DNA of 64,000 nt. It comes from Phycisphaerales bacterium (GTDB taxonomy: Bacteria > Planctomycetota > Phycisphaerae > Phycisphaerales > UBA1924). The notes beneath the pieces were generated by a model. The model did not search any database. It had not been told where the DNA came from and worked only from the letters and a program-made list of their open reading frames with translations. A program made the position numbers and the translations under genes. Within the stretch, counting starts at the first letter, position 1. Every line of letters begins with the position of its first letter. This document shows positions 512 to 64,000 of this stretch, piece by piece. Where the stretch lies: positions 1 to 64,000 of the forward strand of contig JAJDDD010000003.1 in NCBI GenBank assembly GCA_029260495.1, given 5' to 3'.

Positions 512-1177
512 ATGCATTTTAAAGCACTTATTGCGACTGTGTGCGCCGTCGGCGCCGCCGCAGTTGCTCACGCTGGAACCACCACGCTTTCGTTCTTCCA
601 GATTCCGAGCACCAACGGAAATGTGAACATTGCGTCACAACTCAGCGTTGATGTCGATCCGGTCGCTGGCATGATGGACAAGGTGGATTTCACGTTCAAG
701 AACAACGTCGGCGTTTCCTCTTCGATCAGCGAGGTCTACTTCGACGCAGGCTCGACAATGGACACCATCTTCGACACCGGTGCGATCGAAAATCAGATGG
801 GCACGAGCTTTTCATATGGCTCAGCGGCACCCCCGGTACTTCCCGGCGGCGCCTCAATCTCGCCGGTCTTTGAAACCACAATGGGTTTTCTGGCTGACGC
901 GCAAGGCAACCCTTCCGTTGGCGTTAGCACAGCGACCGACTTTCTCACCATCCGCATCATGCTCAAAGCTGGCTCCACGTTCAGCGACGTTCTTGACGGC
1001 CTGAACGATGGCAGCATCCGTCTCGGCATGCACATCCGTTCTATCGGAGCGAACGGCGGAAGCGATGCCTATGTGAGCCAGCCACCCACCACGATGATCC
1101 CGCTGCCTTCTGCAGCAGGTCTCGGCCTGGCAGGGCTCGCTGGGATGGGCATGTCACGCAGGCGACGCTTCGCGTAA
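512..1177 (+). CDS. PEP-CTERM-like surface protein
   Basis: A 221-residue exported protein. The start at 512 is chosen because AGGAAG lies seven bases upstream and the protein then opens with a normal signal peptide (Met-His-Phe-Lys, hydrophobic stretch, Ala-His-Ala cleavage region near residue 20). The middle is Ser/Thr/Gly-rich with no recognised enzyme motif. The C-terminus has a Pro-Leu-Pro-Ser turn, a Gly/Ala/Leu helix and Met-Ser-Arg-Arg-Arg-Arg, the tripartite layout of PEP-CTERM sorting tails processed by exosortases; the Glu of the classic PEP is absent. A longer frame runs upstream from 305 but lacks a signal peptide. It is probably an envelope or extracellular protein of unknown role; two similar tails occur at 58858 and 59690. 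Confidence 0.8.
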   Translation: MHFKALIATVCAVGAAAVAHAGTTTLSFFQIPSTNGNVNIASQLSVDVDPVAGMMDKVDFTFKNNVGVSSSISEVYFDAGSTMDTIFDTGAIENQMGTSFSYGSAAPPVLPGGASISPVFETTMGFLADAQGNPSVGVSTATDFLTIRIMLKAGSTFSDVLDGLNDGSIRLGMHIRSIGANGGSDAYVSQPPTTMIPLPSAAGLGLAGLAGMGMSRRRRFA

Positions 1178-1216
1178 CTCCGCCGCGTCGATCACCACAA
1201 AACACATCACAAACAC

Positions 1217-1245
1217 CGTCTGGCGAATAAAAGCAGACGCTGTTT
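1217..1245 (+). terminator. Hairpin between convergent genes
   Basis: CGTCTG (1217-1222) and CAGACG (1234-1239) form a six-pair stem with an 11-base loop, followed by CTGTTTT. It lies between the plus-strand surface-protein gene and the convergent end of dnaA. The minus-strand side is also T-rich after the stem, so it may serve both genes. Confidence 0.5.
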
Positions 1246-2750
1246 TAGTGCGCCGGCGTCGCCGCTGAAACTGTCGAAACTGTTGTGTTCACCTTCACGT
1301 TCGCCCCCGCGCCTGTTGCGAGTTTGGACTCGAGCACTTCCAGCGTCGCTGGCATGTCGTACAGCCCGTTTTCACGGTGGGACTTGATGAGCCGAACCGC
1401 GTGCAAGACGGTTGTGTGATCGCGCCCGCCGAAATATCCGCCGATCTCCTCCAGGCTGTACCGCGTGAGCTTGCGAGCCAGATACATGCACACCTGGCGC
1501 GGCTGCGCGATCGAACGCTGTCTTCGTTTGGATTGGAGCGCCGCTAGTGACACGCCGTAATAGTCCGTCACCGCGTCAACAATTGTTTCGATCGTTGCGC
1601 GATTGGTTGGCGGCGCATGCTCGACGCCCAACGCCTCACGGGCAAGCTCCTCCGTAATCTCCACGCCATCCATGTGCGCCAGGTGCTGGACTTGCGTGAT
1701 CGCGCCTTCAAGCTGCCGGATGTTCGAGTCAAACCGCCCCGCGATCAGATTCGCCACCTCATCCGGAATCTCCATGCCTCGAACGCGCGCCTTCTGCTGG
1801 ACAATCGCGACCCGCGTTTCATAGTCGGGCGGGTCCACCCTCGCTTCAAGCCCCCACTTGAAACGGCTCACCAGCCGATCCTCAAGATGCGGGATGTGAT
1901 CGGGCGCTTCATCAGAGGAGAGAATGATCTGCCGCTGGGATTGATACAGCGTGTTGAAGGTGTGAAAAAACTCATCCTGCGACCGTTCACGCTTGACCAG
2001 GAAGTGGATGTCATCAATCACCAGCACATCGACCGTCCGGAAGTGCTCACGGAAATCGCTCATCTGCCCGGCCTTCACCCCCTCGATAAATCTTGTAATA
2101 AAATCTTCACAGGAGATATAAAGGATCGAGGCTGCCGGATTTTTTTCCAAAATTCGCTGACAAATCGCCTGCAGAAGATGTGTTTTGCCGAGCCCCACGT
2201 CCCCGTGAATGAAGACCGGGTTGTACACTTTGCCCGGATTCTCCGCGACCGCGACGGCCGCTGCATGGGCAAACCGGTTGTTCGGCCCGACCACGAACTG
2301 ATCAAAGCTGTTGTCCGGGATGAGCGTCAGCTCATCGCTGTAGCTTCCCCGCCTCTCGCCGCCATTGGACGAATGCCCCGCAGCGCCATTTGTCCTGCCC
2401 GTTAGGACTCCATTGCCCGTAGGCATTGGCGCTGCCTTACCAGCGTGCCCTGTCGAGCCGCTGGCGGCAGTTCCGGCCTCGGCCAACTGCAGTTCTGAGC
2501 CAAGCCCGGACGCGAAGAACCGAACCGTCACCAGCCGTCCAGTCGCCTCCTGGGCGGCGTCGGCAAACGCCCGGGCGCATTCGCGCTCGAGGTACTTGAG
2601 CTGCACCGGATTCGCGACGCGCAGGCGAAAAAGACCGCCGTTAAGCGTGATTGGCTCGATCTCCTCGAACCATTGACGCCACGCTCCGGGGTGGCGATTT
2701 CGCAAATGCGCAAGCAGATTCTGCCAGATCGCCCGATCCGGATCAATCAT
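1245..2750 (-). CDS. dnaA: Chromosomal replication initiator DnaA
   Basis: DnaA binds DnaA boxes at the origin and melts it in an ATP-dependent way. From the ATG at 2750 the protein has 501 residues: domain I about 1-80 (AIWQNLLAHLRNRHPGAW), a Gly/Ser-rich linker about 90-140, the AAA+ core with Walker A GDVGLGKT at 183-190 and Walker B VLVIDD at 242-247, LEDRLVSRFKWGL near 289, and domain IV with the DnaA signature YLARKLTRYSLEEIGGYFGG around 423-442 and RDHTTVLHA. An in-frame start at 2849 would add 33 residues with no domain I match, so I prefer 2750. dnaN, recF or gyrB are not adjacent. I found no cluster of consensus DnaA boxes on either side. Confidence 0.97.
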   Translation of the reverse strand: MIDPDRAIWQNLLAHLRNRHPGAWRQWFEEIEPITLNGGLFRLRVANPVQLKYLERECARAFADAAQEATGRLVTVRFFASGLGSELQLAEAGTAASGSTGHAGKAAPMPTGNGVLTGRTNGAAGHSSNGGERRGSYSDELTLIPDNSFDQFVVGPNNRFAHAAAVAVAENPGKVYNPVFIHGDVGLGKTHLLQAICQRILEKNPAASILYISCEDFITRFIEGVKAGQMSDFREHFRTVDVLVIDDIHFLVKRERSQDEFFHTFNTLYQSQRQIILSSDEAPDHIPHLEDRLVSRFKWGLEARVDPPDYETRVAIVQQKARVRGMEIPDEVANLIAGRFDSNIRQLEGAITQVQHLAHMDGVEITEELAREALGVEHAPPTNRATIETIVDAVTDYYGVSLAALQSKRRQRSIAQPRQVCMYLARKLTRYSLEEIGGYFGGRDHTTVLHAVRLIKSHRENGLYDMPATLEVLESKLATGAGANVKVNTTVSTVSAATPAH

Positions 2751-2925
2751 GGATATCGCCCCAGCTGGACCTCGCAGCGAGGATGGTGTTCGTGCGTTGA
2801 TTCCGACGGTTCTACAAACGCCCGTGATGATGCCGAGTCCAGTCTTCACAAGGGCTTATGCGCGATCAGCGCCCCCTGCACTACACACTGAACGCCCACC
2901 GGCATTACTCGACAAGCGTGCGCGG

Positions 2926-2954
2926 AAAGTAAACCTGCATGCTCGTTGTGTCAA
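2926..2954 (-). promoter_or_regulatory. Candidate dnaA promoter
   Basis: On the minus strand a perfect TTGACA (2954-2949) is followed after exactly 17 bases by TACTTT (2931-2926), three of six matching the -10 consensus. It would start transcription near 2919, about 170 bases before the dnaA ATG. This rests on motif match alone. Confidence 0.35.
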
Positions 2955-3069
2955 CCACCTTGTGCTGAAAGATTGAGACACTCTATTTTGCGCATTTGGC
3001 GCTTGACAACGCGCTACTTGCTTGGCATGGGCTTTGCGCCTCAGCGACCACAAATGCGCGCAGAACAAA

Positions 3070-3107
3070 GGTTTTCGTGCGCACAAAAACCAAAGGCGTG
3101 CGCACAA
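3070..3107. promoter_or_regulatory. 22-bp palindrome plus repeated half
   Basis: Bases 3070-3091 form a 22-bp palindrome with ten of eleven pairs matching (GGTTTTCG, core GTGCGCAC, AAAAACC side). The 11-mer CGTGCGCACAA inside it (3076-3086) recurs exactly at 3097-3107, 21 bp later, about two helical turns. It lies in the 365-bp gap between the RNase Z-like gene and dnaA, about 115 bp upstream of the candidate dnaA promoter. It could be an operator for a dimeric regulator of dnaA; a weak terminator of the RNase Z-like gene is the alternative. Nothing else is evident in the gap 2751-3115. Confidence 0.45.
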
Positions 3108-3115
3108 CCCTGGAG

Positions 3116-4054
3116 TCACTGCGCCGCGGTCTGGGCCAGTTCCGCCTCTTTCGCGCGTGCTTCTTCTGCTTGGCGTTCATACCGTTGCTTGTTTGCGTAG
3201 TGGTCCATCAAGAAGGCGACCCGGCTCGGATCGTGTTTCTGCAAGACCTCGCGTAAACGCTTGCGGGCAAAGCTCAGGTTGGAGCGCCTGGAAACATGCG
3301 TTAAAACGAGCATTTCGCATTCCAAAATCGGCATCCATTCCACGATGTCATCCAGATGCAGGTGCTTGCCGATCTTGGCGCGCTCTTTGTGGTCGGGCTC
3401 GATGAACGTGCATTCAGAGATCACAATCTGGGCTTTGCGAATGTCTTCGCGCAGCAGTGGGGCGCCGGGGGCGGTGTCGCCGAAATACGCGATCAGCGGG
3501 ATATCCAGGATGCGTGTGATTTCGACGCCCCGGTCCTTGAGTTCGCGCAGTTTTTCCTGCGGAAAGCCGTTGAACTCCTCTTTGAGCTTGGATCTTTTCT
3601 CGACGATGAGGTAGCCCATCGAAGGGGACGTGTGCTCTGTCTGGAACGCGCGGAGCACAACATTGTTTTTGATTTCGATTTCCTGCTCGTGCTCGATCTC
3701 GATGAGGTTGTAGGGCGTGACCTGCTGTTCGAGATCGTTGAAGCCCGCCATCATCGCGCGCACGGCTGGGGCGATGCGCTTGTCGCAGATCAGCGTTCCA
3801 TCGCCCATTCCCTGAAAGCGTCGCTGGGAGCAGTAGTAGGCGAGCCCGCCGATGTGATCCATATGCCCGTGGCTGATCGCGACATACTTGCTTGCGAGAC
3901 AGGCGCGGGGGCAGAGGCCCATATCGAAGCAGATATCGAGTTCGGGAATCTGAATGGCTGTCGCTTCGCCGGCGACGGAGACTCCCTGCACGCGGAAGGG
4001 GGGGAGATACAAAAATCCGAGAGCGCCCTCACGGGGCGGCGGCTTGGGAATCAT
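3116..4054 (-). CDS. RNase Z-like metallo-beta-lactamase-fold hydrolase
   Basis: A 312-residue zinc hydrolase. The start at 4054 is set by GGAGGAT (4067-4061) six bases upstream. The metal site motif HGHMDHIGG lies at residues 62-70, followed by TEHTSPSMGYL, a GDT turn (YFGDTAPG), ISECTF, KHLHLDD and LVLTHVSRRS. That order (HxHxDH, GDT, E-x-T, HxH, THxSxR) matches tRNase Z, which trims tRNA 3' trailers, better than lactamases or glyoxalases. The only tRNA in the window lacks an encoded CCA, consistent with a need for tRNase Z, but a different phosphodiesterase role is possible. It has no operon partner; dnaA follows on the same strand after 365 bp. Confidence 0.8.
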   Translation of the reverse strand: MIPKPPPREGALGFLYLPPFRVQGVSVAGEATAIQIPELDICFDMGLCPRACLASKYVAISHGHMDHIGGLAYYCSQRRFQGMGDGTLICDKRIAPAVRAMMAGFNDLEQQVTPYNLIEIEHEQEIEIKNNVVLRAFQTEHTSPSMGYLIVEKRSKLKEEFNGFPQEKLRELKDRGVEITRILDIPLIAYFGDTAPGAPLLREDIRKAQIVISECTFIEPDHKERAKIGKHLHLDDIVEWMPILECEMLVLTHVSRRSNLSFARKRLREVLQKHDPSRVAFLMDHYANKQRYERQAEEARAKEAELAQTAAQ

Positions 4055-4225
4055 CAGAAAATCCTCCAGTGCGGAGCTTCCACTTCGCAGGCGGCGACAA
4101 GAGTTATGAAAAGCCAAACGCTGGCGTTCAACGACCATCCGCCGAGCGACGAGAGCGCGGCGAGATGCGCGATGTTAGCCCATTGGAGTTGTCAAGGCAA
4201 AGCTCTAAATGAAGTTGTTGGCTAA

Positions 4226-5563
4226 TCAACGAGGTGTGTTGATTTCCACAAGATCGGGCCCTGTTGGAACAGACCAATAGAGCAGGTAGGGCCGTCCGTG
4301 CTCGTCATCTTCGACGCGCTCGTATTGAAACGGCTCGCCATAAAGTGGTTCGATCGGCACTCCGCCGGGAAGTTCGTTGAGTGATTCCGGCCAGACTCCG
4401 TGCTCGTTGAAGTAGATTTCCAGACGAAGCAACGTGATAACCGCTGCGTGGTGGTAGTGAACTTCATCATACTTTGTGGCGCGGAATTCAATCCCTGTGG
4501 GACCACCGAACTCGCCAAGCGCATCATTCCAATCCAGTTCCTCATAGCTGGGCCGCTCGGCGTTTGGAAGTTGAACCCACTGTTGAATTTTGGGTATGAT
4601 TTCATCCAGCTTTTTCAAAAATGCTTCATGTTCAGGCGTTCCAAATATGGACATGACATTCCACAGTCGCTCCGCCAGGTTTGGGGCTTCGTCATAGCTG
4701 CCGAACCAATCATCAAACCAGCCGCCTTCTTCTTTGCTGATCCACCATTTCAGCAACCGACCGCGACGATCGTAGCCCCGCGATGTCGATGAACGTAACT
4801 CAAGCTCCATGCCTCTTATAAATCGCTCTACATCAAGACTCCGCTGTAAATCTTCTTCAATGACAGCGATCGCATCTTCGCAAAACTCGGTTGGCAATAC
4901 CAACTCATGCGACAAATGAATAATCGGGACAAGCACTCGCTCCATGGCTCGGCTATAGAACAGCCCTATTGGCGAAGACGCCCACGCAAACAATCGCGCT
5001 GATCCCAGCCCCGACTGAATAGTCTGCAATGCGATCGCCCAGTCGGCATTCATGCAAGCAACTCGCAAGCGAGTCTGATGTGCAAAGCTCATTGCGATCG
5101 AGTTGTCAAGAATGGGGCTTGAGACAAAGCCGAGTACATCTGGTTGAAGATGAAGCGCAAGGCCATCTAACTCGGCCGCCCTGTCAAGCAGTGCGAATAA
5201 CTCATTCCCTTCTCGAAACGCCGCCAGCGCTGTCTCAAGCTCCACTGGATCCCACGGCTCTTTACTCAGGTCATACATGTGGCCCGACCACCATCGATCC
5301 GAACTCGCGTTCCACTTCGCTTCCAGCCTCTCTAGCTCCGCGATCGCCTCTTCGTAGATCGGCGCCGCGTTTTCGAGTCCTTCCTGACCTTCTGCCATCA
5401 GGGCGGTCATTTCGGCTGCGATGTCTTCCAGATATTGCGGGTCGGGCTCAGCCATCACTGCGGGCCAGGCGAGCCAGACGATGACGCTGACGACGATGGC
5501 GTTGAGCGCGGCGCCGACCCGAATGGATGTGAGCAATCGTCTTGTGACCGTCGGCTGGGTCAT
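4226..5563 (-). CDS. Membrane-anchored protein, paralog A
   Basis: A 445-residue protein of unknown function. One N-terminal membrane segment (about residues 18-38) is followed by a mostly helical, Glu/Trp-rich body. Residues 29-80 are identical to those of the next gene (5650-7005), while the rest of the two proteins is only partly alike. The last 70 residues carry a shared motif, TLLRLEIYF, WPESLNELPGG, YGEPF and DDEHGRPYLLYW, a kind of C-terminus seen in many planctomycete proteins of unknown role. I chose the ATG at 5563 over the GTG at 5587 because the two paralogs then align from their first residue without gaps. No catalytic motif is visible. Confidence 0.8.
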   Translation of the reverse strand: MTQPTVTRRLLTSIRVGAALNAIVVSVIVWLAWPAVMAEPDPQYLEDIAAEMTALMAEGQEGLENAAPIYEEAIAELERLEAKWNASSDRWWSGHMYDLSKEPWDPVELETALAAFREGNELFALLDRAAELDGLALHLQPDVLGFVSSPILDNSIAMSFAHQTRLRVACMNADWAIALQTIQSGLGSARLFAWASSPIGLFYSRAMERVLVPIIHLSHELVLPTEFCEDAIAVIEEDLQRSLDVERFIRGMELELRSSTSRGYDRRGRLLKWWISKEEGGWFDDWFGSYDEAPNLAERLWNVMSIFGTPEHEAFLKKLDEIIPKIQQWVQLPNAERPSYEELDWNDALGEFGGPTGIEFRATKYDEVHYHHAAVITLLRLEIYFNEHGVWPESLNELPGGVPIEPLYGEPFQYERVEDDEHGRPYLLYWSVPTGPDLVEINTPR

Positions 5564-5649
5564 GTTGTGAGTGTACGCGTCAGACACGAACCTATGCGCA
5601 ACACCATCTCGCGCTGCGCCGAAAAGGGTCCAAAACCCATGCCCGCCCT

Positions 5650-7005
5650 TTATCGCCGGGGCTCGTTGATCGGGGTTCGATTGGGGGCTGTTGAGTTGGG
5701 CCAGAAGAGGAGGTAGGGGCGGTCGTGTTCGTCGTCTTCGATGCGCTCGTACAGAAACGGCTTGCCATAGCGTGGGTCGATTGGCGCTCCGCCGGGCAAT
5801 TCGTCGAGTGATTCGGGCCAGACGCTGTGTTTGCTATAGAAGATTTCGAGGCGGAGCAGCGTGATGGCGGCGTAGTGATAATGGTGTCGCTGATCGACAA
5901 GGTTGATGCCGTACATGTACATCCGCTCGACACCAAACTTGTCAAGTGAATGTGTCCAGTCTTCATCCTTGAGTTTCGGTCGCTTGGAAGATGGCGACTC
6001 AGTCCATAGGCGAAGCTTTATCTTTACCTTGTCGAGTGTTCTCATAAACTCGTCATGTGTTCGGACGCCGAATATTTCGGTCACATCGCGCAAGCGTTCT
6101 GCCAGGTTTGGAATGAACTCATCATTGCTGAATAGCTGATAATGCCAGTCCTCGTTTTGAGCGCCGAGCCATGATGTGAGCATCCGGCCGCGATGATCGA
6201 ATCCATCTGATGTAAGCCAGCGAAAATCAAAGGCCATCCCATCGACATACCGTTCGATGTCAATTTGGTGGAGCAAGTCCTGTTCAAGCAAAACAATCGC
6301 CTGCTCACAAAACGGAGTTGGAAGCTGCAACTCCTGTGTCAGGTAGATCAACTCTCTCACTTTGTGCGAGTAGCTGAAACTCATCTGTTGGACCCACACT
6401 CCTGGAGTGCGGGCGTAGTGTTGCGCAGCCGTTGTTATCAAACTGATCGTAACCAGAGCATTTGTCCAATCGCCTGATAGACATGCGACTCGCAATCGAG
6501 CCTGAAGCGAGCCAGCGAGATCATATGTATGTTTTAGCGCGGGGTGAGTGAGATGCCTGTATTGGCTCGCGCTTGTTTGAATTTTGAATCGAACCGTAAA
6601 TCCATCTACTTCTGCAGCTTGCTCAAGCAATGCGAACAGTTTGTCGCCGTCTTCCAAAGCGACCAGCGCCGCTTCATGTTCCTCACTTCCCCACTGCCTT
6701 CGCGTCAGCAGCCGAATTCGCCCGTCCCAATCGTGATTTGGATCTTGTTGTTTCCACTTGTTATTCAGCCTCTCTAGCTCCGCGATCGCCTCTTCGTAGA
6801 TTGGCGCTGCGTTTTCGAGTCCTTCCTGGCCTTCTGCCATCAGGGCAGTCATTTCAGCTGCGATGTCTTCCAGATACTGCGGGTCGGGCTCTGCCATCAC
6901 TGCGGGCCAGGCGAGCCAGACGAAGACGCCCACGATCGCAGCATTCAGGGCGCAGGACACCCGCAATGGTGTGCATACCCGACGGACTGATTCAACCCGG
7001 GACAT
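5650..7005 (-). CDS. Membrane-anchored protein, paralog B
   Basis: A 451-residue paralog of the gene at 4226-5563, lying 86 bp upstream of it on the same strand. It has the same plan: short basic N-terminus, one membrane segment, then AEPDPQYLEDIAAEMTALM and a helical body, and the same end (TLLRLEIFY, WPESLDELPGG, DDEHDRPYLLFW). Residues 29-80 match paralog A exactly; the 156 DNA bases encoding them differ at seven positions, all silent. The two are a local duplication and may be co-transcribed. Function unknown. Confidence 0.8.
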   Translation of the reverse strand: MSRVESVRRVCTPLRVSCALNAAIVGVFVWLAWPAVMAEPDPQYLEDIAAEMTALMAEGQEGLENAAPIYEEAIAELERLNNKWKQQDPNHDWDGRIRLLTRRQWGSEEHEAALVALEDGDKLFALLEQAAEVDGFTVRFKIQTSASQYRHLTHPALKHTYDLAGSLQARLRVACLSGDWTNALVTISLITTAAQHYARTPGVWVQQMSFSYSHKVRELIYLTQELQLPTPFCEQAIVLLEQDLLHQIDIERYVDGMAFDFRWLTSDGFDHRGRMLTSWLGAQNEDWHYQLFSNDEFIPNLAERLRDVTEIFGVRTHDEFMRTLDKVKIKLRLWTESPSSKRPKLKDEDWTHSLDKFGVERMYMYGINLVDQRHHYHYAAITLLRLEIFYSKHSVWPESLDELPGGAPIDPRYGKPFLYERIEDDEHDRPYLLFWPNSTAPNRTPINEPRR

Positions 7006-7120
7006 CCCATAAGTTTACGCTCCCATTGCTTCGCATCACTCTCCAAGCGGTCCAGGCCCATCATTGGGCGCTCCAACTGCGCTTTCCCAAGGAACCGCCT
7101 GCCCCCTCGCGGCGTCTATT

Positions 7121-9661
7121 ATGAGAAGCATGAGTAGAACGCGCGCTATCGCGAAAGCTTCCCAGCGTCGCCGTCTGGCGCGGGTTTTTTTGCGCGCGGT
7201 CGGGCTTTGGCTTTGCATTACGCTGGGGGTCGCTCTGGTGGCGGCCCTTGTTGATCGTTTGATCGGGCCGGGGCTGGCGTGGTGGATGTTCGTTGGTCCA
7301 GCTGTCGTCGTGGGGGTTGCGGTTGCTGTTCTTGTTGCTTTGCGTTCGGTGCGTCCGCTTGAGCAGGTTGCGGCGGAGGTGGATCGGGCGCTGGCGCTCA
7401 AGGATTGTTTGAGTTCGGGTCTGGCGCTGGAAGAGGCTGGGCGAGCGGAGCCCTTTGCGGCGCTGGCTGTGCGCGACGCTGAGCAGACGGCTGGAAGCGT
7501 GCGATTGCGCAAGGCGATTCCAATTAAGATTGGCGTGTCGTGGGCGCTTTGGCCGGCGCTGTTTGCGGGAGTGATTGCGGTTGCGATGTTTGTACCTGCG
7601 CTGCATTTGCTTGTGGATCAGGAGGCGGCAGCTCAGCGCGTTCAGGAGGCAGCCGATCGCAAGAATGCAGTCGACGAGATTCAAGAGGCCCAGCAGGCGG
7701 CTCAGCGCGCTATTAAAGAGACAACCGTCGCGCCGGCGACGGTTGAAGAGCTTGACCAACTCGAGGCGCTGGCGGAAGAGCTGGCTGCGGGGAGCGCCGT
7801 CCCGGATGAAGCGCGTGCCCGGGCTGCGCAGGCTCTTGAGCAGGCTGCCCGCGCTCTCGATGACCAGGCTCAGCAGTCCAACCTGCAGAAGCAGGCTCGG
7901 GCTGAGCGTTTTCAGGGGCTTGACAGTTCTGATAAGAGTGATGCTGAAACATCCAAGCTGCGCCAGGCTTTGGAAGCGGGTGACCTTGAAGCTGCTCTCG
8001 AAGAGATTGAACGAATCCAGCACATGCTTGATTCACTTGAAGGTGAAGATCGGCAGCGTCTTACAGACCAACTCGACGGGCTTGCGCGCGATCTGAAGTC
8101 GCTCGCGGATGAGCCTGCTGACGCAGGCGATGCGGATCCGAGTCTTGATGAGTCGCTTGGGCGATCCTTCCCCGAAGAGCAAGCGCGCGAGCTGGCGGCG
8201 GAAACCGACGAAGACCGCATTCGCGAGAAACTCGAGGAGCGCGGTTTCGATGAGCAAACTGCTCGGGAGTTGGCTGAAGATCTCGCTCAACGCGCGAGAG
8301 AGCGCGAGGCGGAGCAGCAGGCTCGGGAGGAGGCTCGTGAGCTGGGCGAGGCTATTGAAGAAGCAGCGCGCGAGAGAGAAGAGCCGGAGCAGGTTTCGGA
8401 TGAGTCCCGGCCGGAAGATCAGACATCACAGCAGGAAAACCCGGCTGATCAACAACAGGACGATCAAGTAAACCAGGAGCCACAAGACCAAAGCGCACAG
8501 CGGGATCAGTCGCGTGAGCAGCGCAGCGACGAGCCGGGCGCGGAACGGCGCCAGAGCGAAGGCGAGCAGCAGCCCGATCCAGACAGCAAGTCCGGCCGGG
8601 AAGAATCAGCTGATCCTTCTCAACAGCAACAACAAAACGAACAGGACGCTCAGCGGGAACAGCGTGAGCCCGGCAGCGAACAGCAACAAGACCAATCCGA
8701 GCCTGGTGAGAACGCTGAACAGAGCCAGCAATCGCGCGAATCTTCAGAGCAGCAAGATGGGTCGCGCAAACAGGGCGATTCAAGTCAACAGCCAGAAAAC
8801 GCTGGCGATCAGAATCAGGAGCAGCAGGAGACTGTCCGTGAAGCTGCTGAAGGTGAAGAGGGTGAATCGCAAGAAGTGATCTCTGAAAACCCTGCTGAGA
8901 GGGAACAGGGTGAGGGTCAGGATGCCATTTCCGAAGAGGCTGAGCCTGAGGGTGAGCAAGAGGCGCCAAACTCCGCAAACCCTGATCAACAACAACAGCA
9001 ACCCGGCCAGCAACAAGATCAAACTCAGCAGCAATCTGAAGATCAACCCCAGCAAGGCCCGGGTCAGATGCCAGACGACGGTGAGGGTCTTGAGCGGATG
9101 CGCAAGCAAATCGAACGTATGCGCGAGCGCCAGCAGTCAGGTGAGCAGAGCGAACAAAGCGCTGAACAGCTCCGCGAGCAGGCTCGGGAACTGATGGAGA
9201 AGATGAGCCCGGAAGAGCGCGAGCGCGCCGAACGCTTGGCTCAGCAGATGGCTCGCGAGCAGGATGAACCCGCTGGCGGCAGCACTGCGGGCGAGCGACT
9301 CACCGATCTGTTCGGACCGGAGCAGACATCTGATCCCTTCGACACTGAGCCGGTCGATCTTCGCAACCAGGACTCCGGCGAGGGCGACGACCCCGCTGAC
9401 AACGAGCGCGTTTTGGCGGAGTTCTTCACGGATGAGGAGGGCGAGCCGGGCGAAGTTGAGCGGCAGCAGGCAGACACGCTCATCCGTGAAGCCCAGCAGG
9501 CGGCCCAGCGGGCTATTGATGAACAATCCGCCCCTGCGCGAAGGCGTGATCTCATTCGCAGGTATTTCGACCACCTTCGGGACAATGACGCTCCTCTCAG
9601 TGAAGACGCCCGGGACGCTGGCGACGCCGAAACCTCCGCCGACGGCGACGATGAGGGTTGA
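7121..9661 (+). CDS. Gln/Glu-rich coiled-coil membrane protein
   Basis: An 846-residue protein of unknown function. Three hydrophobic segments (about residues 22-45, 50-73 and 138-158) are followed by about 680 residues that are almost entirely charged or polar: helical coiled coil (about 160-430), then a low-complexity Gln/Glu/Asp/Ser tract with poly-Gln runs (about 440-660), then another helical stretch. The motif EAQQAAQRAI occurs on both sides of the low-complexity tract, early in the coiled coil and about 60 residues before the end, suggesting an internal duplication. Related Gln/Glu-rich proteins occur in planctomycetes beside vWA/MoxR gene sets, but none is here. The start is uncertain between the ATGs at 7121 and 7130. 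Confidence 0.75.
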   Translation: MRSMSRTRAIAKASQRRRLARVFLRAVGLWLCITLGVALVAALVDRLIGPGLAWWMFVGPAVVVGVAVAVLVALRSVRPLEQVAAEVDRALALKDCLSSGLALEEAGRAEPFAALAVRDAEQTAGSVRLRKAIPIKIGVSWALWPALFAGVIAVAMFVPALHLLVDQEAAAQRVQEAADRKNAVDEIQEAQQAAQRAIKETTVAPATVEELDQLEALAEELAAGSAVPDEARARAAQALEQAARALDDQAQQSNLQKQARAERFQGLDSSDKSDAETSKLRQALEAGDLEAALEEIERIQHMLDSLEGEDRQRLTDQLDGLARDLKSLADEPADAGDADPSLDESLGRSFPEEQARELAAETDEDRIREKLEERGFDEQTARELAEDLAQRAREREAEQQAREEARELGEAIEEAAREREEPEQVSDESRPEDQTSQQENPADQQQDDQVNQEPQDQSAQRDQSREQRSDEPGAERRQSEGEQQPDPDSKSGREESADPSQQQQQNEQDAQREQREPGSEQQQDQSEPGENAEQSQQSRESSEQQDGSRKQGDSSQQPENAGDQNQEQQETVREAAEGEEGESQEVISENPAEREQGEGQDAISEEAEPEGEQEAPNSANPDQQQQQPGQQQDQTQQQSEDQPQQGPGQMPDDGEGLERMRKQIERMRERQQSGEQSEQSAEQLREQARELMEKMSPEERERAERLAQQMAREQDEPAGGSTAGERLTDLFGPEQTSDPFDTEPVDLRNQDSGEGDDPADNERVLAEFFTDEEGEPGEVERQQADTLIREAQQAAQRAIDEQSAPARRRDLIRRYFDHLRDNDAPLSEDARDAGDAETSADGDDEG

Positions 9662-60569: not shown

Positions 60570-60681
60570 TGCGAAGAGATGTCAGCCGGCCTTGGGCGCT
60601 CTGGAACAGCGGGTCAGTTGACAACGGAAAGTCCTTGGTGAGCGAGCACGGATTGCTTGAACAAGGAAGGTGTTTGTACCC

Positions 60682-61674
60682 ATGACGACTTTGTGCCGCC
60701 TCGTTGCCGGGGCTCTTGCGCTCGCGGGGTGTCACTGCGCGCACGCCTTCACGCTGCTGAACTTCCGCTCGCTGCAAGACATTCAGAACGGCCAGTTCCA
60801 TTTCTGGCAGCCTGACACAGCTGGCGAGCAAACTCTCACCCTCTCTTACGCCATCGACGCCAACTTCCTCGCTTCTTCATCGACCGTTGATAAAGCAGCT
60901 GCCCGCGCCGCAGCGACGCGCGCTCTCCAGACCTGGGTCGATGCCTTCCAGGGCGCCGCTACCCACACCATCGCCCCCTGGCCCGCTGTCCCCAATCAGG
61001 GCGTCAGCCCGCCCGCCGCCTGGGAAGGCCCCTTTCTCGACGACTGGTTCGCCGACCAGAATCTTCCCACTGAACGCCAGCAATATCCCGGTTCGCTCCC
61101 CGGCTGGGGCGCCAACTTTGACATCTTCTCCCGACCCACCGGCTTTACACTTGATTCAGGCGTCCTCCACTTCGAAATGGGTCCGGGCAATCTCGGCTTC
61201 ACCGTTATCAACCGCACCGGCAATGCCCTGCTCTCCGTCGATATCTATCTCAATGAAGATTTCATCTGGACTGACGACGGATCAGCCGGCTTTGACATTG
61301 AAACCGTGATTCTCCACGAACTCGGTCACGGTTTCGGCCTCGATCACCCCCAGGAGGCCCAGCAGTACGGCGGCGTCAACCTCGATCCCGACAGCTTCCT
61401 GCCCGGCGCCCCCTGGTCTCCCGCAGACGTCATGCACCCGGACTACACCGGCATCAAACGCGCCCTCACTGCTGACGAAGCAGGGGGCCTTCGATTCCTC
61501 TACGGCGTCGTCTCGCCCATCGTCGGCGATCTCAACTCCGACACGCACGTCAACGCCTCCGATCTCAGCCTCCTGCTCGGCGCCTGGGGCACAAACAATC
61601 CCCTCGCTGACCTCAACGCAGACGGAACTGTCGATGCGTTCGACCTCGCGATCCTGTTCGGCGCCTGGACCTGA
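60682..61674 (+). CDS. Matrixin-like metalloprotease with dockerin-like repeats
   Basis: A 330-residue exported protein. After a signal peptide comes a beta/alpha region, then the zinc site HELGHGFGLDHP (HExxHxxGxxH) of matrixins and serralysins, with VMHPDY after it as the Met-turn. The end (about 280-330) holds two calcium-loop dockerin-type repeats, GDLNSDTHVNASDLSLLLGA and DLNADGTVDAFDLAILFGAW. The protein may cut surface proteins and dock to a partner, but no cohesin is in the window. The ATG at 60682 with GGAAGG 11 bases upstream is used; a GTG lies at 60670. Confidence 0.87.
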   Translation: MTTLCRLVAGALALAGCHCAHAFTLLNFRSLQDIQNGQFHFWQPDTAGEQTLTLSYAIDANFLASSSTVDKAAARAAATRALQTWVDAFQGAATHTIAPWPAVPNQGVSPPAAWEGPFLDDWFADQNLPTERQQYPGSLPGWGANFDIFSRPTGFTLDSGVLHFEMGPGNLGFTVINRTGNALLSVDIYLNEDFIWTDDGSAGFDIETVILHELGHGFGLDHPQEAQQYGGVNLDPDSFLPGAPWSPADVMHPDYTGIKRALTADEAGGLRFLYGVVSPIVGDLNSDTHVNASDLSLLLGAWGTNNPLADLNADGTVDAFDLAILFGAWT

Positions 61675-61736
61675 CAGCACTGACTTTGCGCATCGGCCGG
61701 TGTGACTCCTTCGTGCGTTCGTGTACTGTTCGCCGC

Positions 61737-63089
61737 GTGGATCCCAACCCCGGAGTCATCCTCATCTTCTGCCCGCTCAGCGTCGAAGCTCGCGCTGCGC
61801 GCCGTGCGCTTAAACAAGCGCACGCAAAACGGAATATCAGTGTCTATCAGATTGGCGTCGGGCCGAACCTTGCTGATCGACTCCGCGCCGCGATCGACTC
61901 CCACGACAACGTCCGCGCCGTCATCCTCGCGGGTCTCGCCGGCGCCATCGCTCCAACCCAATCTCAGCTGCGCATCGCTGAAGTCATCACTCCGGATGGC
62001 GTTCATCTCCCTCCCCTGCGCGATGGCACACCAACCGCCCGCAATACAAAGCTCATAGGCGTCGACACTCCCGTCCTCACACCACAAGCCAAGCGCGAGC
62101 TTTACGTCGACTCAGGCGCCCACCTCGTTGATTGCGAATCTCACAACTTTGTTCCCATCGCGCGCGCAGCATCCCTACCCTGGGCTATTGCTCGCGGTGT
62201 GAGTGACGCTCACGATGTCAACCTTCCTGCCCAAACGATCCGCTGGATGAGTGCGCACGGGAACATCCGTCCAATGCAAGTTCTGTTTGACATCATTCGT
62301 CAACCTTCACTCATCCCCGCGCTCGCTCGCCTCAAGGGCAGCGCGGACACTGGCCTTACGGAGATGTGCCGCCAGCTCATCGCCATCATCGAGGCTGCAT
62401 CGCGTACGCTTGAGCGTATGGATGAAGAGCCCGACTCACTGCCGATCCCAGCCGCTGTCCGCTCTGTTCTCGTGTATGGCGGCGCCTTCGATCCGCCGCA
62501 CATCGCGCATATTCAACTTCCACCACAAGCGCGGGACGCTCTCAATCTTGATTTCGCGCTCTACATCCCCACCGCGACAACGCCTCTCAAAGGCCGGGCT
62601 GGCGCGACCGGTGTCGATCGCATCGAAATGCTCAAGGGGGCCCTTGCGAGCGATCCTCGCGCTGCGGTTTCGTCCATCGAACTCAGCCGCGGCGGTGTCA
62701 GCTACACCATCGATACGCTCGCAGCGCTCCGCGAGCGCGCGCCCCACGTCACTACCTGGCGTCTGCTCATCGGCGCCGACCAGGCAGCGAAGTTCCATCA
62801 ATGGCGCGATGCGGCAACCATTTTCAAACTTGTCCCCCCCGTCGTCATGCTCCGCTCACCAGATGAATCCAAAGAGAGTCTCCTTGGCAGCCTTCGCCCT
62901 TATTGGAGCGAGTCAGAGCTCAGCCAATGGGGCCAAGCAATTGTCGAGTTGCCAGCTATTAATGTTTCATCCACAAAAGTGCGCACGTTGCTCGCAAGCG
63001 ACCCACCTGACATCAAGGCGCTGAGCGAGCTGCTCGCGCCGGAGACGCTCGAATATATCACCCAGCGCGCCTTGTACAAAACAGCATAA
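61737..63089 (+). CDS. nadD: Nucleoside phosphorylase-like domain fused to NadD
   Basis: A 450-residue fusion. Residues 1-200 resemble the nucleoside phosphorylase/nucleosidase (MTA/SAH or HpnG-like) fold: VGPNLADRLRAA, VILAGLAGAIAP (66-72), VDCESHNFVPIARA and AIARGVSDAH. Residues 240-450 are nicotinate-nucleotide adenylyltransferase, which makes deamido-NAD: VYGGAFDPPHIAHIQLPPQA, LYIPTATTPLKG, YTIDTLAALRE, LLIGADQAAKFHQWRDA and INVSSTKVRTLL. Both parts are in one open frame. I start at the GTG at 61737, just before the first strand. The N-terminal substrate is unknown; a role tied to nicotinamide riboside or an adenosyl compound is inference. Confidence 0.85.
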   Translation: MDPNPGVILIFCPLSVEARAARRALKQAHAKRNISVYQIGVGPNLADRLRAAIDSHDNVRAVILAGLAGAIAPTQSQLRIAEVITPDGVHLPPLRDGTPTARNTKLIGVDTPVLTPQAKRELYVDSGAHLVDCESHNFVPIARAASLPWAIARGVSDAHDVNLPAQTIRWMSAHGNIRPMQVLFDIIRQPSLIPALARLKGSADTGLTEMCRQLIAIIEAASRTLERMDEEPDSLPIPAAVRSVLVYGGAFDPPHIAHIQLPPQARDALNLDFALYIPTATTPLKGRAGATGVDRIEMLKGALASDPRAAVSSIELSRGGVSYTIDTLAALRERAPHVTTWRLLIGADQAAKFHQWRDAATIFKLVPPVVMLRSPDESKESLLGSLRPYWSESELSQWGQAIVELPAINVSSTKVRTLLASDPPDIKALSELLAPETLEYITQRALYKTA

Positions 63090-63116: not shown

Positions 63117-63482
63117 CTACCTCTGCCGCGACCGGCGTAGAAGATAGGTGTCGTGCTTGAGGCGGTCTGTGGATGGGTCGATCTCCCATCCCTGTGCGCC
63201 CAATGCAGACAGAAAGTAAAGCTCGATCGGCACGAGAAGTTTGATCTTCGACTCATTCACTGCGCGGATCGGGTCGCGTCGTTCGGGCCCTTCGAGGTAG
63301 ACGACCCGATCCCATGTCGTGAAGATGGCGTCTTCGCTGCGCACAGTGAGTTCGCCATATTCGTAAGTCAACAGGGCGATGACTTCGTTTTCGTGTTCAG
63401 CGCTCGCGAGACGCGAAGTACTGACAGCGAGCGCAACCATCAGAAGAACGATAGCTGCGATGAGGATATGCTTGATACTCAT
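63117..63482 (-). CDS. DUF4177-like membrane-anchored protein
   Basis: A 121-residue protein with one N-terminal hydrophobic segment (ILIAAIVLLMVALAVSTSRL, either anchor or signal) and a compact domain ending in FLSALGAQGWEIDPSTD and YLLRR, the LGxxGWE...YLxxR pattern of DUF4177. GGGAGAA sits upstream of the ATG at 63482. Such proteins are small and of unknown role. No partner is evident. Confidence 0.75.
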   Translation of the reverse strand: MSIKHILIAAIVLLMVALAVSTSRLASAEHENEVIALLTYEYGELTVRSEDAIFTTWDRVVYLEGPERRDPIRAVNESKIKLLVPIELYFLSALGAQGWEIDPSTDRLKHDTYLLRRSRQR

Positions 63483-63566: not shown

Positions 63567-64000
63567 TCACGCGCATCGCGACACGGGATCAATTCGTCCA
63601 ACTGGCTGAGGCAAGAGAATTTGCCGAACCATCTCCCACGGCTGCTCAGCTTTCTCGCGACAAATGCGAGCCGCTGGGTGATAAGTAGCTATCACGGCAA
63701 GATCGCCTGCGTCTACGGCTTGGCCTGAATCTCTGGCGCCACTCCACGATTCGTCTATATCAAGAGCGCCCGCCGTGCATTGCCATGCCTCCCTACCCAT
63801 ACAAACAATGGCTTGTAAGTGTGGCAAATGTTCCACAACAAACGAAACCACGCGCGTGCCGAAAGCCATCGCCTCCTTGCGGTTCGGCAGTGATCCACTC
63901 ATTTCTTCATCGTCTCGTAGCAAACAGGCAAGGGCTGATCCGTATAGCAAGCCACACGTGTTTGGCTCCGAGCCAATCGTCAGTGGATCTGCGAAACGAC
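63567..64000 (-). CDS. Uracil-DNA-glycosylase-like protein, partial
   Basis: This gene runs off the right window edge, so its 5' end is missing. The frame stays open to base 64000, reading ADPLTIGSEPNTCGLLYGSA into ALACLLRDDEE. Visible motifs are IVCMGREAWQCTAGAL and VIATYHPAARICREKAEQPW, the late helix/strand and His-Pro motif of uracil-DNA-glycosylase superfamily members. The GEAPG-type first motif would lie outside. It ends at RIDPVSRCA. Exact family (type 4, 5 or Mug-like) is open. Confidence 0.75.
   Translation of the reverse strand, partial: RFADPLTIGSEPNTCGLLYGSALACLLRDDEEMSGSLPNRKEAMAFGTRVVSFVVEHLPHLQAIVCMGREAWQCTAGALDIDESWSGARDSGQAVDAGDLAVIATYHPAARICREKAEQPWEMVRQILLPQPVGRIDPVSRCA

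Follow-up and report, generated by a model that had tools for sequence, protein, structure and literature searches.

Which task could a nucleosidase-like domain have when it is joined, in a single polypeptide, to an enzyme of NAD synthesis? The question is raised by a gene near the end of the window, i.e., the whole stretch of 64,000 nucleotides of a Phycisphaerales contig that was analysed. A sequence-only reading had seen a NadD active site in the C-terminal half of the predicted protein and a nucleosidase/phosphorylase fold in its N-terminal half, and had suggested that the latter may provide or control a nucleotide precursor of NAD or, alternatively, act on an adenosyl compound. As discussed below, the protein is most likely a two-headed enzyme with independent HpnG and NadD heads, born from a pair of neighbouring genes; the substrate of the first head, the activities of both and a link through expression only are what we infer. 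This explanation builds on direct observations of the two folds, the conserved catalytic residues, a single-copy NadD, co-occurrence with hopanoid genes, gene order and repeated fusion.

Organization of the fused gene

The open reading frame runs on the forward strand, with no internal stop, from a GTG start codon at 61737 to the stop codon that ends at 63089 (61737–63089 including the stop), and encodes 450 amino acids; a TTG in the same frame, further upstream at 61686, could serve as the start instead. All parts of the gene described here lie on the same strand. The HpnG-like nucleosidase/phosphorylase domain, which belongs to the PNP_UDP_1 superfamily, spans 61758–62405 as delimited with a profile of the domain, and TIGR03468 is its best NCBIfam match. 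It contains the sequences GLAGA (61932–61946), DCESHNF (62130–62150) and RGVSD (62193–62207) and, in the AlphaFold2 model, closes with a long helix (residues 192–229; 62310–62423). The interdomain linker that follows (residues 230–242; 62424–62462) is modelled as coil. The NadD (nicotinate-mononucleotide adenylyltransferase) domain extends from 62472 to 63077, with the nucleotide-binding motif GGAFDPPHIAH at 62478–62510 and the C-terminal motif SSTKVR at 62967–62984. An in-frame ATG (M228; 62418–62420), located 60 nt 5′ of the NadD GG motif, is a possible internal start.

The full-length AlphaFold2 model has a mean pLDDT of 91.6 beside a pTM of 0.75, values that do not suggest a fixed arrangement of the two modelled domains. 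Within the closing helix, residues ~206–228 are amphipathic in a hydrophobic-moment scan for a membrane-binding helix (moment up to 0.66); their charge is near neutral or negative, and we therefore draw no conclusion about membrane binding.

On the 5′ side, an open reading frame on the same strand (60670–61674) reads, by eye, as a zinc peptidase (HELGHGFGLDH) that is secreted and has dockerin-type repeats in its tail; its end at 61674 lies 11 bases 5′ of the alternative TTG start. The 3′ neighbour is a small open reading frame on the opposite strand, the stop end of which begins at 63117. Further downstream, a reverse-strand frame that leaves the end of the window (63567–63998) has, in appearance only, a uracil-DNA-glycosylase-type look.

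The C-terminal half is a NadD

Searched separately, the C-terminal half matches CTP_transf_like at 6.1e-16, over the Pfam cut-off, and the NCBIfam model TIGR00482 with 125.9 bits (cut-off 112.45). Its best match by sequence to a solved NadD is 7.4e-20, and the model of this half superposes on solved NadD chains with Z values up to 24.0 and an rmsd of 1.9 over 184 residues; the structural match list obtained with the full-length model is likewise dominated by the NadD half. Both the motifs GGxFDPxHxxH and SSTxxR and the NadD fold are present. The active site seen in the sequence-only reading is thus borne out by the motifs, which lie where they had been placed, and by the two profile matches over their cut-offs. 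A search of the halves against Pfam, which the same reading had proposed, also came out in its favour, with PNP_UDP_1 and CTP_transf_like each over its own cut-off.

In the whole source genome (G000), TIGR00482 has one match at an E-value of 1e-6, namely the fused domain, which for this reason appears to be the only NadD of the cell as judged by TIGR00482 alone. At the same threshold, 29 of 31 genomes in a set of relatives are matched; 28 have one match and G001 has two pieces on two contigs.

With its passed cut-off, both motifs, single copy and fold (Z up to 24), this half has the features of NadD (TIGR00482). However, NadD is normally a single-domain protein, while here a nucleosidase domain is added at the N terminus. 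Two-domain proteins that contain a pyridine-nucleotide adenylyltransferase are also represented by NadR, NadM-Nudix and the long NadD model PRK07152 (361 positions), a NadD-HD/YqeK fusion. In these, the partner belongs to nucleotide metabolism, whereas the partner discussed here most likely belongs to membrane-lipid synthesis.

The N-terminal half resembles HpnG

The N-terminal half, searched separately, matches PNP_UDP_1 (PF01048) at 5.7e-11 with 42.7 bits, over the Pfam gathering score of 25.1, and its model aligns with solved MTA/SAH nucleosidases and a futalosine-hydrolase mutant at Z 18.3–18.5 with 14–16% identity. The proposed nucleosidase/phosphorylase fold therefore stands. Among the NCBIfam models the best match is TIGR03468, HpnG (3.9e-26, 91.9 bits), although its cut-off of 187.1 bits is missed by far; PRK07077, a generic phosphorylase model, comes second (1.1e-18, 67.5 bits). 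The futalosine hydrolase model TIGR03664 (21.8 bits, cut-off 124.7) and the MTAN model PRK05584 (14.4 bits, cut-off 169) do not reach their cut-offs. Each of the 13 members of the domain alignment matches both HpnG and PRK07077, the latter with a weaker best E-value.

Ten columns are invariant in the 13-member alignment. These include E11, D126, E128, R147, S150 and D151 in domain numbering, which correspond to E17, D132, E134, R153, S156 and D157 in the protein. In a profile alignment to solved MTAN, D132-C-E134 (62130–62138; D and E in 13/13) is the counterpart of the V-E-M-E motif and R153-G-V-S156-D157 (62193–62207; R, S and D in 13/13) that of RAVSD/RAISD, the RxxSD motif with the catalytic Asp. 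E17 (61785–61787; 13/13) lies outside the region aligned to solved MTAN; we take it, by position only, to correspond to MTAN Glu12. The roles of the catalytic residues in this half are assumed from work on MTAN.

How should the missed cut-off be viewed? It is reached in none of 246 genomes of the phylum and hence does not discriminate here, whereas at 1e-12 the model matches 99 of the 246 together with six of 14 control genomes, including E. coli, which means that weak matches are unspecific. Because the cut-off is missed, we call the domain HpnG-like and do not count it as a formal member of TIGR03468. It shares with HpnG the fold, the catalytic motifs, the best profile match and the co-occurrence with HpnH and squalene-hopene cyclase; it differs in its score (~92 bits relative to 187.1) and in being paired with or fused to nadD in the order, with no hpn cluster. 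Taken together, we think that the domain works as HpnG, and cleavage of adenosylhopane is the predicted reaction.

Occurrence follows the hopanoid genes

As outlined in a published account, squalene-hopene cyclase makes diploptene and the radical SAM enzyme HpnH leads on to adenosylhopane; HpnG, a putative phosphorylase, removes adenine from adenosylhopane to give ribosylhopane, which an enzyme yet to be established converts to bacteriohopanetetrol (PMC12583986). This last step is a reduction according to the title of Bodlenner 2015, as cited there and elsewhere (PMC12583986, PMC5358736).

The source genome encodes both HpnH (530 bits, cut-off 225) and squalene-hopene cyclase (542.6 bits, cut-off 431.1). 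The fused gene is on contig C3, hpnH on C6 and the cyclase gene on C12, i.e., there is no hopanoid cluster and the fused gene is not beside hpnH. Among the 31 relatives, HpnH and the cyclase are over their cut-offs in 19 each and the HpnG-like domain is present in 17. All 17 have the cyclase and all except G025 have HpnH. Conversely, none of the 11 relatives that lack both HpnH and the cyclase has the domain, and NadD stands without it. HpnH occurs without the domain in three relatives: in G007 and G016, NadD is not found or is cut by a contig end (draft gaps), and in G018 both the domain and the cyclase are absent.

The same association is seen in 301 genomes of the order, where HpnH and the HpnG-like domain occur together in 146 and are both absent from 125, while 15 have the domain only and 15 have HpnH only (Fisher p about 3e-49, a value that ignores kinship; 30 genomes are discordant). 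For this table, 14 HpnG-profile matches weaker than 1e-20 were scored as absent (reducing the 175 matches at 1e-8 to 161), and HpnH was scored at an E-value of 1e-60 (161 genomes; 160 over the cut-off). The choice of threshold matters, since at 0.001 HpnH matches all 14 control genomes, while none is matched at 1e-60 or over the cut-off; HpnH was therefore scored by cut-off or at 1e-60. The cyclase matches one of the 14 controls, below the cut-off. In the family of the source genome (118 genomes) the corresponding counts are 23 with both, 88 with neither, two with the domain only and five with HpnH only, and in a non-random subset of 159 genomes the direction is the same in families f1 and f6 taken separately. 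In an independent-pairs test on a NadD tree with poorly supported deep branches (G016 and NadD pieces shorter than 150 aa excluded, as in the second tree), there were two supported pairs, of which 1.8 on average pointed the same way and none the opposite way (p 0.5); with such branches the test has no power. Another NadD tree, with deep branches likewise poorly supported, gave a similar outcome.

These data bear on the two functions that had been proposed for the N-terminal domain. A role in supplying or regulating a nucleotide precursor of NAD is not supported, as the occurrence of the domain follows the hopanoid genes and NadD does without it in 11 of 11 relatives that lack HpnH and the cyclase. 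Moreover, adenine and a ribosyl lipid, the expected products of HpnG, are not substrates of NadD. The alternative that the domain acts on an adenosyl compound fares better, and the HpnG-like profile together with the co-occurrence with hopanoid genes points to adenosylhopane as the best candidate. In this context, the fused or paired domain may serve as a genomic marker for producers of hopanoids with extended side chains in Phycisphaerales, which is relevant to biomarker work.

Outside the class of the source genome, to which 28 of the 30 best-scoring TIGR03468 loci in the phylum search do not belong, nadD was absent within the 1.5-kb flanks of all 28 HpnG-like loci. An hpnH-like open reading frame adjoins the HpnG-like gene in four of these 28 (L164, L169, L176 and L187), and these four HpnG-like genes are likewise below the TIGR03468 cut-off. 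As judged from these profiles, the annotation of HpnG may be incomplete throughout the phylum; where a domain with a likely HpnG function scores so far below the curated cut-off of its family, the enzyme could easily escape notice in planctomycetes.

Gene order and repeated fusion

Among the matches listed, 98 genomes have places for both domains (rows without a partner were left out). The two are fused in 41, hpnG is directly 5′ of nadD on the same strand in 43, and they are apart in 14, including all three of family f5. Hence, among the matches listed, 84 of these 98 genomes have the two domains joined or side by side, and such genomes occur in five of the six family groups that the set contains.

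The unfused loci suggest how a fusion could arise. In 30 of 31 distinct unfused hpnG loci nadD is next (the exception is L136), in a set that was mostly fetched through a NadD match and is biased towards pairs. In 17 of the 30 distinct unfused pairs, the start codon of nadD shares bases with the stop codon of hpnG (RTGA, i.e., ATGA or GTGA); for the remaining 13, the closest nadD start is located −11 to +66 bases from the hpnG stop. Where stop and start overlap, small frame changes can fuse the two genes. The distance from M228 to the GG motif in the fused gene, 60 nt, equals the spacing in five unfused RTGA pairs (L010, L014, L015, L109 and L111), and the ATG of M228 could still serve as an internal start for NadD.

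By analysis of the open reading frames, both domains are present at 100 distinct loci; they are fused at 45 of these and encoded by two genes on one strand at the other 55, a ratio that is not a frequency as many loci were chosen for their fused look. The fused loci span 12 genus groups in two families (g1, g5, g48, g58 and g67 in f1; g20, g88, g94, g97, g101, g107 and g149 in f2), and genus g88 contains both states. A quick tree of the 100 loci, based on the two domains with the linkers excluded (422 of 615 columns), has at least 10 changes, in either direction, between the fused and the unfused state, six of which are forced by well-supported branches. In this set the length of the linker, taken as the distance between the two profile matches, varies from −5 to 57 residues. 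The longest linker is found in L240 (G234), a fused locus with an open frame of 590 residues.

The expectation that the fusion, if real, would be kept in related planctomycetes agrees with the 41 fused cases in the 98 genomes among the matches listed and with the catalytic residues, which are invariant in 13 of 13 members. The doubt raised alongside it, that relatives would show separate genes and a frame join peculiar to this assembly, was not borne out: the fusion occurs in many genomes, although unfused neighbours are found about equally often. With every state from fused through overlapping and adjacent to separated in one order, this is a clean Rosetta-stone case, in which fusion may speak for a common function or for translational coupling.

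A search of named public records, with six closer rows of the alignment as query, gave 19 loci: four fused, eight pairs and seven without NadD in the available stretch. At least four of the 19 (L141, L145, L149 and L151) are on the same contigs as G138, G197, G020 and G004 and are not independent. The relatives in these records carry the labels Phycisphaerales, Phycisphaerae, Phycisphaeraceae or Planctomycetota, from which the name used here for the order is taken. In the literature, a search whose scope left out most subscription journals and all preprints found no published pairing of HpnG, or of hopanoid genes, with NadD, and nothing related to NadD fusions was seen in the titles and opening lines of abstracts. 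Both domains are of known kinds, and we found no published description of the hpnG–nadD pairing and fusion.

A probable two-headed enzyme and its alternatives

The combined data suggest a model in which the N-terminal head is the planctomycete HpnG. It would cleave the N-glycosidic bond of adenosylhopane and release adenine, leaving ribosylhopane for the side chains of bacteriohopanepolyols. The C-terminal head would be an ordinary NadD that adenylylates nicotinate mononucleotide towards NAD. Removal of adenine would take place at the membrane and adenylylation of NaMN in the cytosol, with the two heads acting independently. The heads would be joined because hpnG is mostly located directly 5′ of nadD in the order, often with overlapping stop and start; from such a translationally coupled pair, small frame changes near the overlap would have merged the frames several times, and in places the reverse change, from fused to split, may have occurred. 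The link would be shared expression and not the transfer of a metabolite: the variable linkers, the lineages with separate genes and the HpnG products, which NadD does not use, make channelling unlikely.

It is quite unlikely, in our estimate, that the N-terminal domain is instead a general-purpose nucleosidase for MTA/SAH (or futalosine), by which the by-products of SAM chemistry are recycled, with no special tie to hopanoids. It does have the superfamily fold of MTA/SAH nucleosidase (TIGR01704) and futalosine hydrolase (TIGR03664), with D-x-E and RxxSD aligned and with solved members of both kinds as structural matches at the Z values given above; the MTAN model is matched by nine and the futalosine model by six of the 13 members of the domain alignment, and the source genome has no TIGR01704 match at an E-value of 1e-5. 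For the domain in the window, however, the HpnG score is far above the weak scores of the MTAN and futalosine models, and the occurrence of the domain follows the hopanoid genes. TIGR01704 is over its cut-off in only two of the 31 relatives (G014 and G015). Of the 11 that lack HpnH and the cyclase, 10 have neither a TIGR01704 MTAN nor the domain, which argues that the latter is not a stand-in for MTAN. Moreover, the source genome has three PNP_UDP_1 genes, namely the fused gene, a short AMP nucleosidase and a separate futalosine hydrolase over its cut-off (156.1 bits relative to 124.7), and a futalosine hydrolase over the cut-off is present in six relatives that lack HpnH and have one PNP_UDP_1 match each. 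The other two PNP_UDP_1 genes of G000 are on contigs 9 and 20 (L093:2362-3153 and L092:2178-3017).

A functional coupling, by which the joining of HpnG and NadD ties the synthesis of hopanoid side chains to the supply of NAD, is also unlikely. It could operate through formation of NaAD at the membrane, at the site of ribosylhopane reduction to bacteriohopanetetrol, or through an adenine/ATP economy matched to NAD synthesis. In its favour are the fused or adjacent genes in 84 of the 98 genomes and five of the six family groups among the matches listed, the repeated fusion and the step after HpnG, a reduction according to the title of Bodlenner 2015, for which the enzyme is yet to be established (PMC12583986). 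Against this, the linker length varies widely, the genes are apart in 14 of the 98 genomes, among them all three of f5, the expected HpnG products are not NadD substrates, and operons commonly contain unrelated neighbours. A small chance is given to the idea that the hopanoid enzyme carries NadD to the membrane or senses the state of the membrane, with dinucleotide supply or adenine/ATP balance set together with lipid remodelling, and the same small chance to a deeper tie through NADH/NADPH for the ribosylhopane step or through the adenine/ATP economy. If a coupling of this kind were true, an essential coenzyme pathway would be tied to membrane-lipid synthesis.

Could the fusion in the source genome alone be an assembly or sequencing error in an ordinary hpnG–nadD pair? 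Much as in the unfused pairs, frame +2 has stops at 62411 and 62423 beside the in-frame ATG (62418), and with these stops at the junction a single-base error at about 62395–62423 could fake a fusion. The nearest fused relative is 37% identical, too distant to bear on this point. Fused open reading frames are, however, found in 45 genomes that represent 12 genus groups and two families, with more than one fused genome in several genera, and we consider an error here very unlikely. Across the group, the 45 fused loci rule out a frame join confined to one assembly.

Other settings of hpnG

Six hpnG loci have no nadD in reach (L144, L146, L148, L150, L158 and L153; about 2000–8000 in the first five). 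Their neighbours, judged by eye, are fabF-like in five of the six, aroB-like in four, a PagL-like outer-membrane barrel in four and SDR-like in three. From the shared gene order in these nadD-less loci, hpnG seems to have a second conserved neighbourhood. In L153 (about 1072–4642), an hpnG-like gene with no nadD lies, by eye, near a large serine-recombinase-like open reading frame, and a mobile context is possible for this gene.
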